A stretch of DNA of 64,000 nucleotides from Oscillibacter sp. (GTDB taxonomy: Bacteria > Bacillota > Clostridia > Oscillospirales > Oscillospiraceae), in NCBI GenBank assembly GCA_022652815.1, contig JALCRR010000006.1:1-64000 (forward strand), given 5' to 3'. The translations under genes and the position numbers were made by a program. Below the pieces are notes generated by a model. The model saw only the letters and a list, made by a program, of their open reading frames with translations. It searched no databases and was not told where the DNA came from. This document shows positions 9,494-61,286 of the stretch, one piece after another (positions within the stretch are counted from its first letter, which is position 1; each line of letters begins with the position of its first letter).

Positions 9494-9640
9494 ATGTCAA
9501 TCACCGTTTTGGTGTCTGGCAGTGCCTCTTTTTCCCATCATAGCAAATGGTTTCCATTTCGTCAACAGGAAACTTATGTCAACTATATTGGAGCAGGGGC
9601 TTACGGAACGCAATCCCGCCTCCCGGCAGGCTCATGTTCC

Positions 9641-9747
9641 CTAACCACTGTCATGGCCTGCGGTTTCCAGCTGCTTCGCACCTGCAAACCGTGCCGCTTC
9701 CTCGAATAAGCCTCGGTTCATCCGCCGCTAGCGGCGCTTTGGCTTAT
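9641..9747 (-). repeat. Structured 3'-UTR repeat, copy A
   Basis: Read on the minus strand, arms ATAAGCC and GGCTTAT (9747-9741 with 9712-9706) flank a CGCCGCTAGCGGCG hairpin. These are followed by the fixed motif CGAGGAAGCGGC, then a second hairpin with arms CGGTTT and AAACCG around GTGCGAAGCAG, and a tail resembling GCCatGACaGTGgTT. The layout is the same as copies B (9751-9879) and C (60063-60182), but the stem sequences differ. Confidence 0.75.
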
Positions 9748-9750
9748 GGA

Positions 9751-9879
9751 ACACCGTCGCGGCCTTACGTTTTGCGTGCACTTCGTGCCCGCCAACCGTG
9801 CCGCTTCCTCGAAAGCACCTCACTTTATCCGCCACTGGCGGCGCTTCGGTGCTTTCCACTGGCGGCGCTTCGGCTTATT
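9751..9879 (-). repeat. Structured 3'-UTR repeat, copy B
   Basis: Minus-strand arms AAAGCACC and GGTGCTTT (9855-9848 with 9819-9812) enclose GAAGCGCCGCCAGTGGCGG. Next come CGAGGAAGCGGC, a second stem whose outer pairs are ACG/CGT around GCACGAAGTGC, and the tail GCCGCGACGGTGTT. An extra GAAGCGCCGCCAGTGG unit precedes it and overlaps the glmS stop codon. It is tandem with copy A. No credible coding frame covers 9494-9874. Confidence 0.75.
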
Positions 9880-11713
9880 CCACCGTGACGGACTTTGCCA
9901 GATTGCGGGGCTTATCAATGTCGCAGCCGCGCTGCAGCGCCACGTAATAGGCAAACAGCTGCAGCGGCACCACACCGAGAGACGGCTGCAAAATCGGATG
10001 AATCGACGGAACGGAGATCGTAGAATCCGCAGTCTTTTCCATCTTCTCCCGGAACTCATCCGTCGTCAGTGCCAGTACCTCGGCACCGCGCGCTTTGACC
10101 TCCACCACGTTGCTCATGGCCTTGTCAAACAGCGGTGCATAGGTTCCCAGTGCCACCACCAGCGTACCCTGCTCAATTAGGGAGATGGTTCCGTGCTTCA
10201 GCTCGCCGGATGCGTATGCCTCCGAGTGGATATAGCTGATCTCCTTGAGCTTCAAAGAGCCCTCCATGCCCATGGCGTAATCCACATTCCGTCCGATAAA
10301 GAAGATGGAATTGTGGTTGAAATAGCGGGAGGCAAAATACTGAATGTCTGCCGTTTTCTCAAGGACTTTCTGCATTTTCTCCGGCAGCTCTTGAATCCCC
10401 GCCAGAATTGCCTTGTACTCCGAATCGCTGACTGTGCCTAGAAGGTCGCCCAGATACAGTCCCACCAGATCCATCAGCGCCAGTTGGGTGGAATAGGCCT
10501 TTGTGGTTGCAACGGCAATCTCGGGACCGGCCCAGGTGTACAGCACGTCATCCGCATCCCGCGCAATGGAGGAGCCCACCACATTGACAATGGCAAGGGC
10601 TCTGCCGCCCCGGCGCTGCGCCTCCCGCATGGCGGCCATGGTGTCCAGCGTCTCGCCGGACTGGCTGATGACGATGACCAGCGTGTGATCGTCCACCAGC
10701 GGATCGCAATACCGGAACTCGGAGGCCAGAACGACTTCCACCGGCCGGCGCAGCATCTTTTCCCAGTTGTACTTGCTGACCATACCCACATGGTAGGATG
10801 ACCCGCAGGCAATGATAAAGATGCGGGAGATATTTTTCACATACTCCTGCGTCATGGAGATGTCGTCCAGTACAACCCGCTCGCCCTTGATTCGTGGGGA
10901 GACCGTCTTGCGAATTGCTTCCGGCTGCTCCATGATCTCTTTGAACATGAAGTGGGGATAGCCGCCCTTTTCCGCCGCGGTAACGTCCCAGTTCACCTGA
11001 TGGTGTTCCTTGGTCACAGGCACCAGCTCGTCGTCAAACACGTCAATGGAATCGGGGGTGATAACGGCGATCTCGCCGTCGTCCATATAGGAAACTTCCC
11101 GGGTGTGCTTCAAAATTGCCGTCACATCGGAGGCGATGAAGTTCTCACCCTTGCCGTAGCCCAGCAGCAGCGGGGCATCTTTCCGGGCGGCAATCAGTGC
11201 GTTGGGATAGTCGGCGCAGATGATGCCCAGCGCATAGGAGCCCTCGATGCGGCGCAGCACGCGACCCACGGCCTCCAGCATATTGTGACACTCATTATAA
11301 TGATACTCCAGCAGCTGTGCCACCACCTCAGAGTCCGTGTCGGACTTGAAGGTGACGCCCAGCTTCATCAGATGTTCCTTGATCTCCAGATAGTTTTCAA
11401 TGATGCCGTTATGCACCAGCGCAATCTGTCCGTTGGAGCTGACATGGGGATGGGCATTGACGTCGCTAGGCTCGCCGTGGGTTGCCCAGCGGGTATGGCC
11501 GATGCCGAGGTTTCCCTCCAAATCCGCACCGCCATGGGTCAGATCGGAGAGCACCTGCAGCCGCCCCTTTGATTTTTTGACCTGTAAGCCCTTTGTCTCG
11601 GAGCGCACTGCAATTCCTGCGGAGTCATAGCCCCGGTACTCCATACGCTCAAGGCCGTCCAGCAGAATGGGGGCTGCCTCGCTGTGACCTGCAAAGCCGA
11701 TAATACCACACAT
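9875..11713 (-). CDS. glmS: Glutamine--fructose-6-phosphate aminotransferase (isomerizing)
   Basis: The 612-residue enzyme makes glucosamine-6-phosphate, the entry step to UDP-GlcNAc and peptidoglycan. MCGIIGFAGHSEAAP places the N-terminal nucleophile Cys2 of the class-II glutamine amidotransferase domain; the R-G-Y motif MEYRGYDSAGIAV and the GNLGIGHTRWATHGEP loop follow. Two SIS domains (from about 290 and 460) hold the sugar phosphate, with IACGSSYHVGMVSKYNWEK and SQSGETLDTMAAMREAQ, and the C-terminus ends PRNLAKSVTVE as expected. A GGAGGA ribosome binding site precedes the ATG. Expression should be controlled by the glmS ribozyme upstream. The 3' UTR is unusual in carrying two structured repeats. 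Confidence 0.97.
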   Translation of the reverse strand: MCGIIGFAGHSEAAPILLDGLERMEYRGYDSAGIAVRSETKGLQVKKSKGRLQVLSDLTHGGADLEGNLGIGHTRWATHGEPSDVNAHPHVSSNGQIALVHNGIIENYLEIKEHLMKLGVTFKSDTDSEVVAQLLEYHYNECHNMLEAVGRVLRRIEGSYALGIICADYPNALIAARKDAPLLLGYGKGENFIASDVTAILKHTREVSYMDDGEIAVITPDSIDVFDDELVPVTKEHHQVNWDVTAAEKGGYPHFMFKEIMEQPEAIRKTVSPRIKGERVVLDDISMTQEYVKNISRIFIIACGSSYHVGMVSKYNWEKMLRRPVEVVLASEFRYCDPLVDDHTLVIVISQSGETLDTMAAMREAQRRGGRALAIVNVVGSSIARDADDVLYTWAGPEIAVATTKAYSTQLALMDLVGLYLGDLLGTVSDSEYKAILAGIQELPEKMQKVLEKTADIQYFASRYFNHNSIFFIGRNVDYAMGMEGSLKLKEISYIHSEAYASGELKHGTISLIEQGTLVVALGTYAPLFDKAMSNVVEVKARGAEVLALTTDEFREKMEKTADSTISVPSIHPILQPSLGVVPLQLFAYYVALQRGCDIDKPRNLAKSVTVE

Positions 11714-11758: not shown

Positions 11759-11936
11759 GACAAACGCGCAGTCATTTGTCTCTTTTCACACAGTCCGGGC
11801 CCCTCTGTTTTGCGGTCGCCCGCATATTTGTCAGCCCGGTTACGCATCCGTGCACACGGAGGGGCATCCGCCGAAGACTTCGATACTCCCCTCTCCTCGT
11901 CGTCCTGCGTGGTTTGCCCCGCAGGCACATGGCGCT
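11759..11936 (-). ncRNA. glmS ribozyme/riboswitch
   Basis: The minus strand upstream of glmS carries the conserved glmS ribozyme core. AAGCGCC at 11937-11931 includes the cleavage site, between the complements of 11936 and 11935. GACGAGGAG is followed by TATCGAAGTCTTCGGCGGAT and GCCCC, and P3 pairs CCGGGC (11839-11834) with GCCCGG (11800-11795). A further hairpin (11780-11775 with 11764-11759) closes the 3' side. The family self-cleaves on binding glucosamine-6-phosphate and so represses glmS. Boundaries are approximate. Confidence 0.93.
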
Positions 11937-12065
11937 TGGTGTATGGAAAATCCATAAACTCCTTTCACATCTGCGCTTATGATAAAACTCCTTATTGGAG
12001 CAGTATCCCAAAAATGGATAAATCCGCCTCCCGCGGCAAATACTTCCGGTAAAGGGAGGGATTGT

Positions 12066-19027: not shown

Positions 19028-19263
19028 GATATCAGCGTTGAACGGAAAAATAACGATTGTTTCCCGCCAAGAGAGGGTCGGTCACCGGCTGCAAGCCGAC
19101 CTGCGGTCAAGTCGTTTGGTTCGTCCGGGAGCTGCCATGGAGACATGGCCGGTTTTCCCCCGTTACAGGGAGCACGAGTGCGCGCAGTTTTTCTGCGTGA
19201 ATTTGGGTGGTACCGCGGAAGCAAGCCTTTCGTCCCATTTTACGGGATGAAGGGTGTTTTTTT
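19028..19263 (+). ncRNA. T-box leader, phenylalanine type
   Basis: A long structured leader ends with the T-box sequence GGTGGTACCGCGG (19207-19219). An intrinsic terminator follows (stem 19226-19236 with 19244-19253, then a T run to 19263). Such leaders read uncharged tRNA and permit pheST expression on starvation. A TTC (Phe) triplet at 19120-19122 in the apical part of stem I is the probable specifier; its exact place in the loop was not modelled. Confidence 0.9.
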
Positions 19264-60062: not shown

Positions 60063-60182
60063 ACACCGTCGCGGCAATGTAATTTGTGGATGCTTCGCAT
60101 GCGCAAATTGCGCCGCTTCCTCGATTGCGGTTCGCTTATTCCGCCACCGGCGGCGCTTCACCGCAATCCACCGCTGGCGGCG
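60063..60182 (-). repeat. Structured 3'-UTR repeat, copy C
   Basis: On the minus strand arms ATTGCGGT and ACCGCAAT (60167-60160 with 60131-60124) enclose GAAGCGCCGCCGGTGGCGG. CGAGGAAGCGGC follows, then a second stem CAATTTG with CAAATT around GCATGCGAAGCATC, then GCCGCGACGGTGTT. The architecture and the fixed motifs equal copies A and B at 9641-9879, while the stem arms differ with pairing kept. An extra GCGCCGCCAGCGG unit precedes it. Confidence 0.75.
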
Positions 60183-60300
60183 CATTTTCTTTGCCCAAGA
60201 GCAAAGAAAATGGGGGGCCAGGTTTCCTCCGCGCATCAGCGCGGATTCTTGCAGCGGAGCGCCGCAGTTCCCTCGGCGGAGCGCCGCAGGTGCGCGGCAA
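60183..60300. repeat. Hairpin cluster adjoining copy C
   Basis: A 12-bp perfect hairpin (CATTTTCTTTGC with GCAAAGAAAATG, about 60183-60212) is followed by TCCGCGC-ATCA-GCGCGGA (60228-60245) and a tandem GCGGAGCGCCGCAG pair (60253-60290). All lie in the 3' UTR of the DJ-1 family gene. Confidence 0.6.
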
Positions 60301-60984: not shown

Positions 60985-61009
60985 CAGCCACAAGTTCAAA
61001 GCAAACAAA

Positions 61010-61286
61010 CCGATGACGCAGACGAGTAGGCGGAACGAGTTTCTTTCAGAGAGCTGCCGACGATGGGAACGCAGCAGAGATGACTCCGTTGAATGGACTT
61101 GCAGAGGGCGGACTGAACGCGAAAGCCAGTAAGTTCCGACGGGCTTTTCCCCCGTTACCAAGGAAAGACGTGTGTTGGCACGTTGCTAAGTGGGCGAGAA
61201 ATCGCCAAATTGGGTGGCACCGCAGAAGTTTTAGACTTTTGTCCCAAGAGAACAAGGTTCTCTTTGTGGATGAAGGTCTTTTTTTG
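61010..61286 (+). ncRNA. T-box leader, tryptophan type
   Basis: The leader starts with GACGAGTAG (a stem I motif). TGG (Trp) at 61094-61096 sits in the context GAATGGACTT expected of a specifier loop, and the T-box sequence GGGTGGCACCGCAGAAG lies at 61212-61228. A terminator stem (about 61234-61245 with 61267-61278) precedes a T run to 61285. It should permit trpB expression when tRNA-Trp is uncharged. Confidence 0.9.

Follow-up and report, generated by a model that had tools for sequence, protein, structure and literature searches.

What are the two folded repeats that stand in tandem behind glmS in a 64,000-nt stretch of an Oscillibacter sp. contig (the window), and do they serve this gene? 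The original prediction, made from this stretch, described a tandem element of about 110-130 bases that could be either a structured RNA or a hairpin DNA element, and proposed a covariance-model search of the host and its relatives as a check. Here, we describe the repeat unit, its distribution and its insertion sites, and then weigh the explanations of its spread. In our view the repeats probably represent a non-autonomous mobile element, about 106 nt long and composed of two hairpins and fixed motifs, that enters behind GG in folded single strands. Because it settles beside GG in the loops of hairpins and in disrupted tRNA gene copies, it resembles a genomic parasite that targets folded nucleic acids, as opposed to a regulator of glmS.

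The repeat unit and its copies in the window

The repeat is real: all three copies (A, B and C) are present on the minus strand at the predicted positions (Table 1), and its unit measures 106 nt (copies B and C) or 105 nt (copy A) rather than 110-130, copy A being decayed in its 3′ half, where GGCCATGACAGTG stands in place of B's GGCCGCGACGGTG. With minor variations, the order of the unit is GG-(8-nt arm)-GAAGCGCCGCCnGTGGCGGAnnAAGCGA-(complementary arm)-CGAGGAA-GCGGC-(second stem)-GCCGC-GACGGTG. Helix 1, formed by arm1 and arm1′, has 9 bp if the G preceding the arm and the C of CGAGG are counted, the inner hairpin CCGCC/GGCGG sits on a 2-bp GC/GC step, and the second hairpin consists of GCGGC/GCCGC and a variable stem and is followed by the unpaired tail GACGGTG. 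Eight host copies align without gaps over 106 columns (alignment A2). The partial 5′ module, which carries the arm of copy A and contains the glmS stop codon (9875-9877), flanks copy B on its other side, and B is thereby enclosed by a pair of near-copies, each about 24 nt long. An unfilled paralogue of the larger repeat that holds copy C is found at locus L034 on host contig C1. The larger repeats that surround the element hold further hairpins, whose arms differ from copy to copy yet are complementary (e.g. CATTTTCTTTG..CAAAGAAAATG), at 60174-60221 of the window and in the paralogues L012, L013 and L034, and other hairpin repeats with fixed AGCGAAGC loops are present elsewhere.

Table 1. Features of the glmS locus and of the element copies in the window; R1 is the covariance model described in the text.
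Feature	Position	Strand	Basis
Copy B, full-length element, 106 nt	9752..9857	-	R1 113.7 bits, positions 1-106; gap-free in A2; training copy
Copy A, full-length, 3′ half decayed, 105 nt	9646..9750	-	R1 62.3 bits, positions 1-106; outside R1 training set
Copy C, full-length, within larger dispersed intergenic repeat	60064..60169	-	R1 117.7 bits; training copy; unfilled site
Partial 5′ module GG-AATAAGCC-GAAGCGCCGCCAGTGG with arm of copy A	9856..9881	-	Repeat-family search; sequence
Copy B arm1, pairs with 9811-9819	9848..9856	-	Helix 1, 97.2% of cells paired, 92 distinct rows
Copy B arm1′	9811..9819	-	Helix 1
Copy B inner GC hairpin, CCGCC-loop-GGCGG	9829..9841	-	Helix 3, 100% of cells paired
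Copy B fixed motif CGAGGAAGCGGC, including the 5′ foot of stem 2 (GCGGC)	9800..9811	-	Motif scan; helix 4
Copy A fixed motif CGAGGAAGCGGC	9693..9704	-	Motif scan
Copy C fixed motif CGAGGAAGCGGC	60112..60123	-	Motif scan
Copy B second hairpin, GCGGC ... GCCGC, stem variable and covarying	9759..9804	-	Helices 4 and 5
Copy B unpaired 3′ tail GACGGTG, right end of the insertion	9752..9758	-	ACGGTG invariant in A2; right boundary at unfilled site
glmS, host gene	9875..11713	-	ORF; SIS and glutamine amidotransferase domains
glmS riboswitch	11785-11947		Rfam search

At up to one mismatch, the fixed motif CGAGGAAGCGGC is found three times in the window (0.49 expected; one of 100 shuffles reaches three), and in the 2.25-Mb host genome this 12-mer has 13 exact copies, compared with none for a reversed control pattern. 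By eye, one of the 13 (L004) stands without other parts of the element and three (L001, L002 and L011) have the second hairpin only, which is also the part kept, behind a different 5′ part, in a tandem region of host contig C1 (41222-41641; L027, L031-L033).

Folding and covariation

The pair counts bear out the original description of stems that change in a compensatory manner while loop motifs stay fixed. Two-sided changes occur in 15 of 34 pairs of A2, which was aligned by MAFFT alone, with a covariation score of 0.345 (0.153 ± 0.020 when shuffled and at most 0.091 when slid). They rise to 25 of 34 pairs in A3, a set of 92 distinct rows from the window, the genome-contig collection and two viral contigs (0.227 versus 0.076 ± 0.004 shuffled), and to 28 of 34 pairs in 37 distinct copies mostly of other families (0.488 versus 0.119 ± 0.010), where alignments A3, A4 and A5 were made to a model, which for A3 and A4 favours pairing, and where the pair-change cells count sequences rather than independent events. 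In stem 2 the loops are conserved, internal ones included. Single sequences fold only moderately better than their shuffles (z -4.3 for B, -2.8 for A and -1.8 for C), and for A and C the fold of lowest energy departs from the consensus in places. Covariation does not in itself point to RNA as the selected form, as single-stranded DNA or templated correction of the arms would give the same signal as RNA.

Distribution of the element

The search proposed with the original prediction was made with a covariance model, R1, built from the eight host copies and a structure assigned by us, and with a second model, R2, built from A4. In the host genome, R1 returns 21 matches at E<=0.1; twelve, among which are the eight training copies, score higher than 87 bits. 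Within the genus (37 members, host included) there is a match at E<=0.01 in 16 genomes and none in 21, and 23 other genomes of the order add weaker matches in 8, giving 24 of 60 genomes in total, host included. The order searched is, we take it, Oscillospirales in GTDB; NCBI taxonomy places Oscillibacter under Eubacteriales. Across wider samples of the order, each including the host, R1 matches 45 of 394 genomes and R2 matches 99 of 295, belonging to 53 of 149 genera. A phylum-wide draw gave R2 matches in 5 of 398 genomes; besides the host, these are two from its order and two from elsewhere. As R2 also recovers the host copies (best E 8.6e-17), we treat the Oscillibacter type and the type of other families as one superfamily. 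A pattern scan of genome contigs found 86 stretches, and the 80 titles listed name Oscillibacter, Dysosmobacter, Oscillospiraceae and uncultured Clostridia. The element has reached numerous places in a large number of genomes, mainly within a single order.

Just as no named family had been recognised at the outset, Rfam release 15 gave no match at E<=1 for window positions 9630-9890 or for the other-family element at L157 (1480-1640), and none at gathering scores over the elements of the window or of 16 loci; the open-licence literature that we searched yielded no description of the element.

In a single sequence of Vescimonas fastidiosa MM35 (NZ_AP023416.1, 860,917 bp), R1 gives 37 matches at E<=0.01. 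Of these, 13 score above 84 bits; the other 24 score below 44 bits, and the 20 low-scoring ones that were listed read like the other-family type. In seven 50-kb stretches of this sequence, 33 of 33 elements lie between listed genes (by eye, in an incomplete gene table), both sense and antisense to their neighbours: some follow a gene of the same strand, such as recO or ribF, and some are antisense to both neighbours. The plus strand carries 29 copies and the minus strand 8, and plus copies prevail on both sides of dnaA, near 296 kb (22/26 and 7/11), so there is no clear leading- or lagging-strand rule. The sequence is labelled a plasmid, yet it holds dnaA, dnaN, rpoB, rpoC and other core genes (296247-299282, 535696-543113). 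With 37 matches in a named isolate, mobility, transcription and the enzyme become directly testable.

Elements are also present in phages. BLAST with one host copy matched seven unannotated phage records from human faeces, one at full length, and the viral contig L149 (IMGVR_UViG_3300001598_000262) has four R1 matches within 13.7 kb, on the same strand as its genes for a terminase, a portal protein and a replication initiator and, by eye, outside the larger ORFs. This phage is a possible vehicle between hosts.

The glmS locus

GlmS was matched in 35 of 41 genomes, host included, so that relatives are sampled incompletely; the glmS loci of 29 relatives gave no R1 match at E<=0.01, those of L302 and L315 ending less than 100 nt past the stop codon, and we reject a regulator of the glmS 3′ UTR on these grounds. 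Many relatives carry, by eye, an inverted repeat with a run of T soon after the glmS stop. Two T-box leaders lie elsewhere in the window (19029-19240 and 61004-61249). The insertion behind glmS would be one ordinary event in the life of the element, tolerated because the stop codon was kept.

Insertion at GG

Unfilled counterparts of filled sites were found by searching joined flanks against the collected loci, and comparison pairs were picked among the matches listed. At least 25 comparisons, covering 21 filled sites (several in the same larger repeat and partly non-independent), set filled sites beside paralogues, as opposed to one locus before and after, and show that the element inserts as a precise block at GG or a run of G. 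The typical change is from X-GG-Y to X-GG-(arm ... GACGGTG)-NN-Y, where NN stands for two nucleotides that in most comparisons are other than GG. A few sites have a G or GT run at the junction instead of a clean GG, and gaps make the comparison of L123 with L138 unreadable. Since the block by which filled and unfilled sites differ includes the arms, the variable arms are part of the element. At the sites with shared flanks, L101, L107, L130 and L140, arms vary between genomes and are still largely complementary. An open AAA-ATPase frame of the host contains one copy, located behind the lid domain; it is the single result retained from a survey of gene context with a crude ORF caller, whose statistics we set aside because such calls are untrustworthy where DNA is rich in GC. 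GC skew along the element strand gave no signal (19/31 positive).

tRNA genes as targets in other families

Outside the host's family, 80 stretches around high-scoring R2 matches, a set that favours strong copies, hold 97 elements. An intact tRNA is present in 51 of these stretches, at most 300 nt from an element in 50 and on the same strand in 46 of the 51, compared with an intact tRNA within 300 nt in 1 of 105 Oscillibacter-type elements; the tRNA habit thus belongs to the other families, and GG is the common denominator. In 69 of the 97 elements a tRNA-like piece was found in an 80-nt flank (E<=0.01; an uncontrolled count), and GG falls within the last six flank bases or the first three element bases in 91, a figure that has no chance control.

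Exact words placed 35 of the 97 elements on a tRNA. In tRNA-Ser, seven follow nt 18 (the GG of the D-loop) and the downstream flank of five begins at nt 19-20; in tRNA-Pro, six follow nt 37 in the anticodon loop; in tRNA-Met, four lie at nt 41-54 (the variable-loop region); three follow nt 19-23 of tRNA-Leu; two in tRNA-Asn and one in tRNA-Ala are at nt 20; and the remaining seven are at other points. Frequent sites in these families are thus the D-loop, behind its GG, the tRNA-Pro anticodon loop and the region of the variable loop in tRNA-Met. In the loci displayed, the tRNA copy that bears the element is an incomplete, extra copy, usually beside an intact tRNA, and by eye removal of the element leaves no complete tRNA, which rules out an intron. 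At L159 the element lies on the antisense strand of a tRNA-Gly copy, so the loops of tRNA transcripts cannot be the sole target. Inverted tRNA pieces adjoin some elements. At eight loci (L168, L175, L241, L249, L254, L255, L268 and L275) two or three elements stand in a row beside tRNA genes, the repeated unit at L168 and L175 comprising the upstream region, the first part of the tRNA and the element.

Flank duplications and hairpin-loop context

The upstream flank is often repeated downstream of the element (local score >=20): in 28 of 63 cases versus 3 of 309 mismatched pairs in other families, and in 7 of 76 versus 4 of 376 for the Oscillibacter type. The repeat varies in length, from about 20 to more than 100 nt, and its end often coincides exactly with the boundary of the element. 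For inverted flank repeats (score >=14), other families show a modest excess (5/63 versus 3/311) and the Oscillibacter type none (1/76 versus 2/377). Judged by duplex energy, the flanks of 77 Oscillibacter-type copies are complementary directly beside the element (z -3.0), a signal that is absent 40-120 nt away, and in other families the same test is weak (z -2.4, -1.8 and +0.9 at 0, 40 and 80 nt). The outer stem of 20 Vescimonas copies has 161 of 180 cells paired, compared with 148.1 ± 2.5 (largest 156) for shuffled partners.

Other small repeats of these genomes seem to insert with similar flank duplication. At L304 (G013) and L310 (G029), a different repeat follows glmS, and beyond it the terminal glmS coding bases are present a second time, giving additional matches to residues 582-612 and 591-612. 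At L119 (3298-3470), about 23 nt are repeated on either side of the element, beside what is presumably the end of groEL, as recognised from the sequence.

Candidate enzymes and coding capacity

Three enzyme families were considered as partners. Strong Y1_Tnp matches (E<1e-10) are found in 7 of 16 carriers versus 2 of 21 non-carriers, and Y1_Tnp has no match in 6 of the 16 carriers (draft genomes); seven Y1 loci have no R1 match at E<=0.1 around them. RVT_1 is absent in 9 of the 16 carriers, host included, and IS110 gave no match in 6 and matches below the cut-off only in 3 more (draft genomes in both cases). With the reserve that these are drafts, carriers without them rule out Y1, RVT_1 and IS110 as obligatory partners, and a weak enrichment of Y1 remains. 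The element itself makes no case for a conserved peptide and is ruled out as a coding element, since its lengths vary between 105 and 108 and, while five of its six reading frames are open more often than in shuffles, the sixth is open in 38 of 99 copies, as in shuffles (0.39).

A model for the spread of the element and its rivals

In the mechanism that we propose, the element would be recognised in its folded single-stranded form, either as DNA exposed at replication or transcription or as RNA, probably via the fixed motifs GAAGCGCC..AAGCGA, CGAGGAA and GACGGTG. The target hairpin would be nicked behind GG within its loop and the folded element inserted there, followed by gap filling or template switching, which could give rise to flank duplications of variable length and to the fold-back stems that surround the element. 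The acting protein may come from the host or from phages. The two nucleotides that differ from GG at the right end are unaccounted for by this model. We think it rather doubtful that the repeats go further and represent a mobile class of their own, in which the hairpin loop is the unit of mobility, entering loops of folded nucleic acid behind GG (D, anticodon and variable loops of tRNA as well as loops of other repeats) and having its stems rebuilt by fold-back copying, with no dedicated transposase; if stems are so rebuilt from the target, loops would travel and stems would be rewritten at each site.

Of the two forms initially envisaged, mobile hairpin DNA is favoured and a conserved cis-regulatory RNA of glmS is disfavoured, against which speak the unfilled sites, the scattered positions, the glmS loci without a match, the presence of sense and antisense copies and the insertions into tRNA copies. 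A broader RNA reading, in which a conserved structured RNA of 3′ UTRs (an RNase barrier or terminator-like structure) has spread as a module and is kept for its function, would fit the covariation in A2, A3 and the other-family set, the intergenic position of all inspected Vescimonas copies, and the place of copy B behind glmS on its strand, a placing that some Vescimonas copies share, such as those behind recO and ribF. We judge it improbable in view of the relatives' glmS loci, the Vescimonas copies antisense to both neighbours, the copy within the AAA-ATPase frame, the patchy presence in the genus (16 of 37, absent in 21) and the insertion into incomplete tRNA copies. An ordinary MITE, mobilised by a known insertion sequence (IS200/IS605, RAYT, IS607 or IS110 type) with an enzyme that acts in trans on the hairpin ends, is also unlikely: the present unit is small, non-coding and precisely inserted at a short motif, its two-hairpin form recalls the ends of IS200/IS605 and, going by PMC3733652, REPs, and strong Y1 matches are commoner in carriers, but no tested family (Y1, RVT_1 or IS110) occurs in every carrier and the seven Y1 loci have no element around them. 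Moreover, the aligned ends, (GG)AAACAGCC.. and ..GACGGTG, are by eye in A2 not inverted copies of each other, and in place of a fixed-length target-site duplication there is GG on the left, mostly another dinucleotide on the right, and flank repeats of variable length.

Templated arm correction is a serious alternative source of the covariation: if a polymerase switching between the arms of the palindrome keeps them identical, covariation would be unselected and folding need not be functional. At several pairs of helix 1 two-sided changes far outnumber one-sided ones (at columns 7-43, both sides are changed in 43 cases and one side in 4, with 3 unpaired), 31 different arm sequences occur among 88 copies, and inverted tRNA pieces adjoin elements, all of which suit this account. 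We nevertheless regard it as the less probable one, because stem 2 has conserved loops, internal ones included, and helix 1 is fully Watson-Crick in only 49 of the 88 copies, with G-U pairs in 20 and a mismatch in 19, so that correction would be incomplete. A SINE-like RNA element, reverse-transcribed from its folded RNA into nicked sites so that the flank duplications are target-site duplications, agrees with duplicated flanks of variable length that often end at the element boundary and with the association with tRNA, and is nonetheless very improbable, RVT_1 having been found neither in the host (96% complete) nor in eight further carriers.

With this element, an order of gut bacteria gains a widespread family of small mobile DNAs, and its settling in tRNA loops leads to a concrete prediction on folded single strands as insertion targets. 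In addition, strong covariation in bacterial intergenic DNA need not imply a regulatory RNA.

Comparison with known systems

Several kinds of mobile DNA share single traits with the element. The ends of IS200/IS605 elements are hairpins, which the two-hairpin form recalls. The BOX repeats of pneumococcus and the ERIC/RU repeats are, like the present repeats, intergenic, mobile and folding, and are about 100-170 bp long; they are likened here by description only, and to our knowledge they are not targeted to GG in loops. The absence of RVT_1 in 9 of 16 carriers and of an IS110 recombinase match in 6 of 16 (drafts in each case) does not suit an element driven by a reverse transcriptase, such as a group II intron, or one of the bridge-RNA IS110 kind. 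REPs, according to PMC3733652, which also mentions the Rickettsia palindromic elements, are single hairpins of 20-40 bp with a GTAG or CGTC tag, associated with RAYTs; the present element has likewise hairpins and an unpaired tag, its tail GACG being CGTC on the opposite strand. In contrast to the single tagged palindrome of REPs, it is a 106-nt two-hairpin unit, no link to a RAYT was found at the seven Y1 loci and in the 16 carriers, and its tail tag is not conserved, reading AACG in many copies and AAGAGGG or AACAGGA in other families.

The element appears to work most like the mitochondrial double-hairpin elements and the Rickettsia palindromic elements, by analogy and not as a member of either group. 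The double-hairpin elements of Allomyces show compensatory changes, and the present repeats, with two hairpins kept by such changes, are dispersed and mobile as well, which is an analogy only. In PMC2800124, the repetitive hairpin-forming elements of Allomyces and sponge mitochondria are described as short, dispersed, presumed mobile, often intergenic and also present in rRNA genes; both they and the present element are short dispersed hairpins that can be tandem, whereas the latter is bacterial, about 106-114 nt long and provided with fixed motifs between its hairpins; the two are likened by description only. The short palindromic repeats of Volvox organelles have been inserted into one another and also inside an rRNA-coding module, and differ in being organellar and single palindromes (PMC2670323). 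The present element resembles the Rickettsia palindromic elements in being palindromic and dispersed; some of their copies lie in open frames, as one host copy does in the AAA-ATPase frame. It is likened to them by description only, belongs to another phylum, is mostly intergenic where inspected and, in the other families, frequently has tRNA loops as its target.
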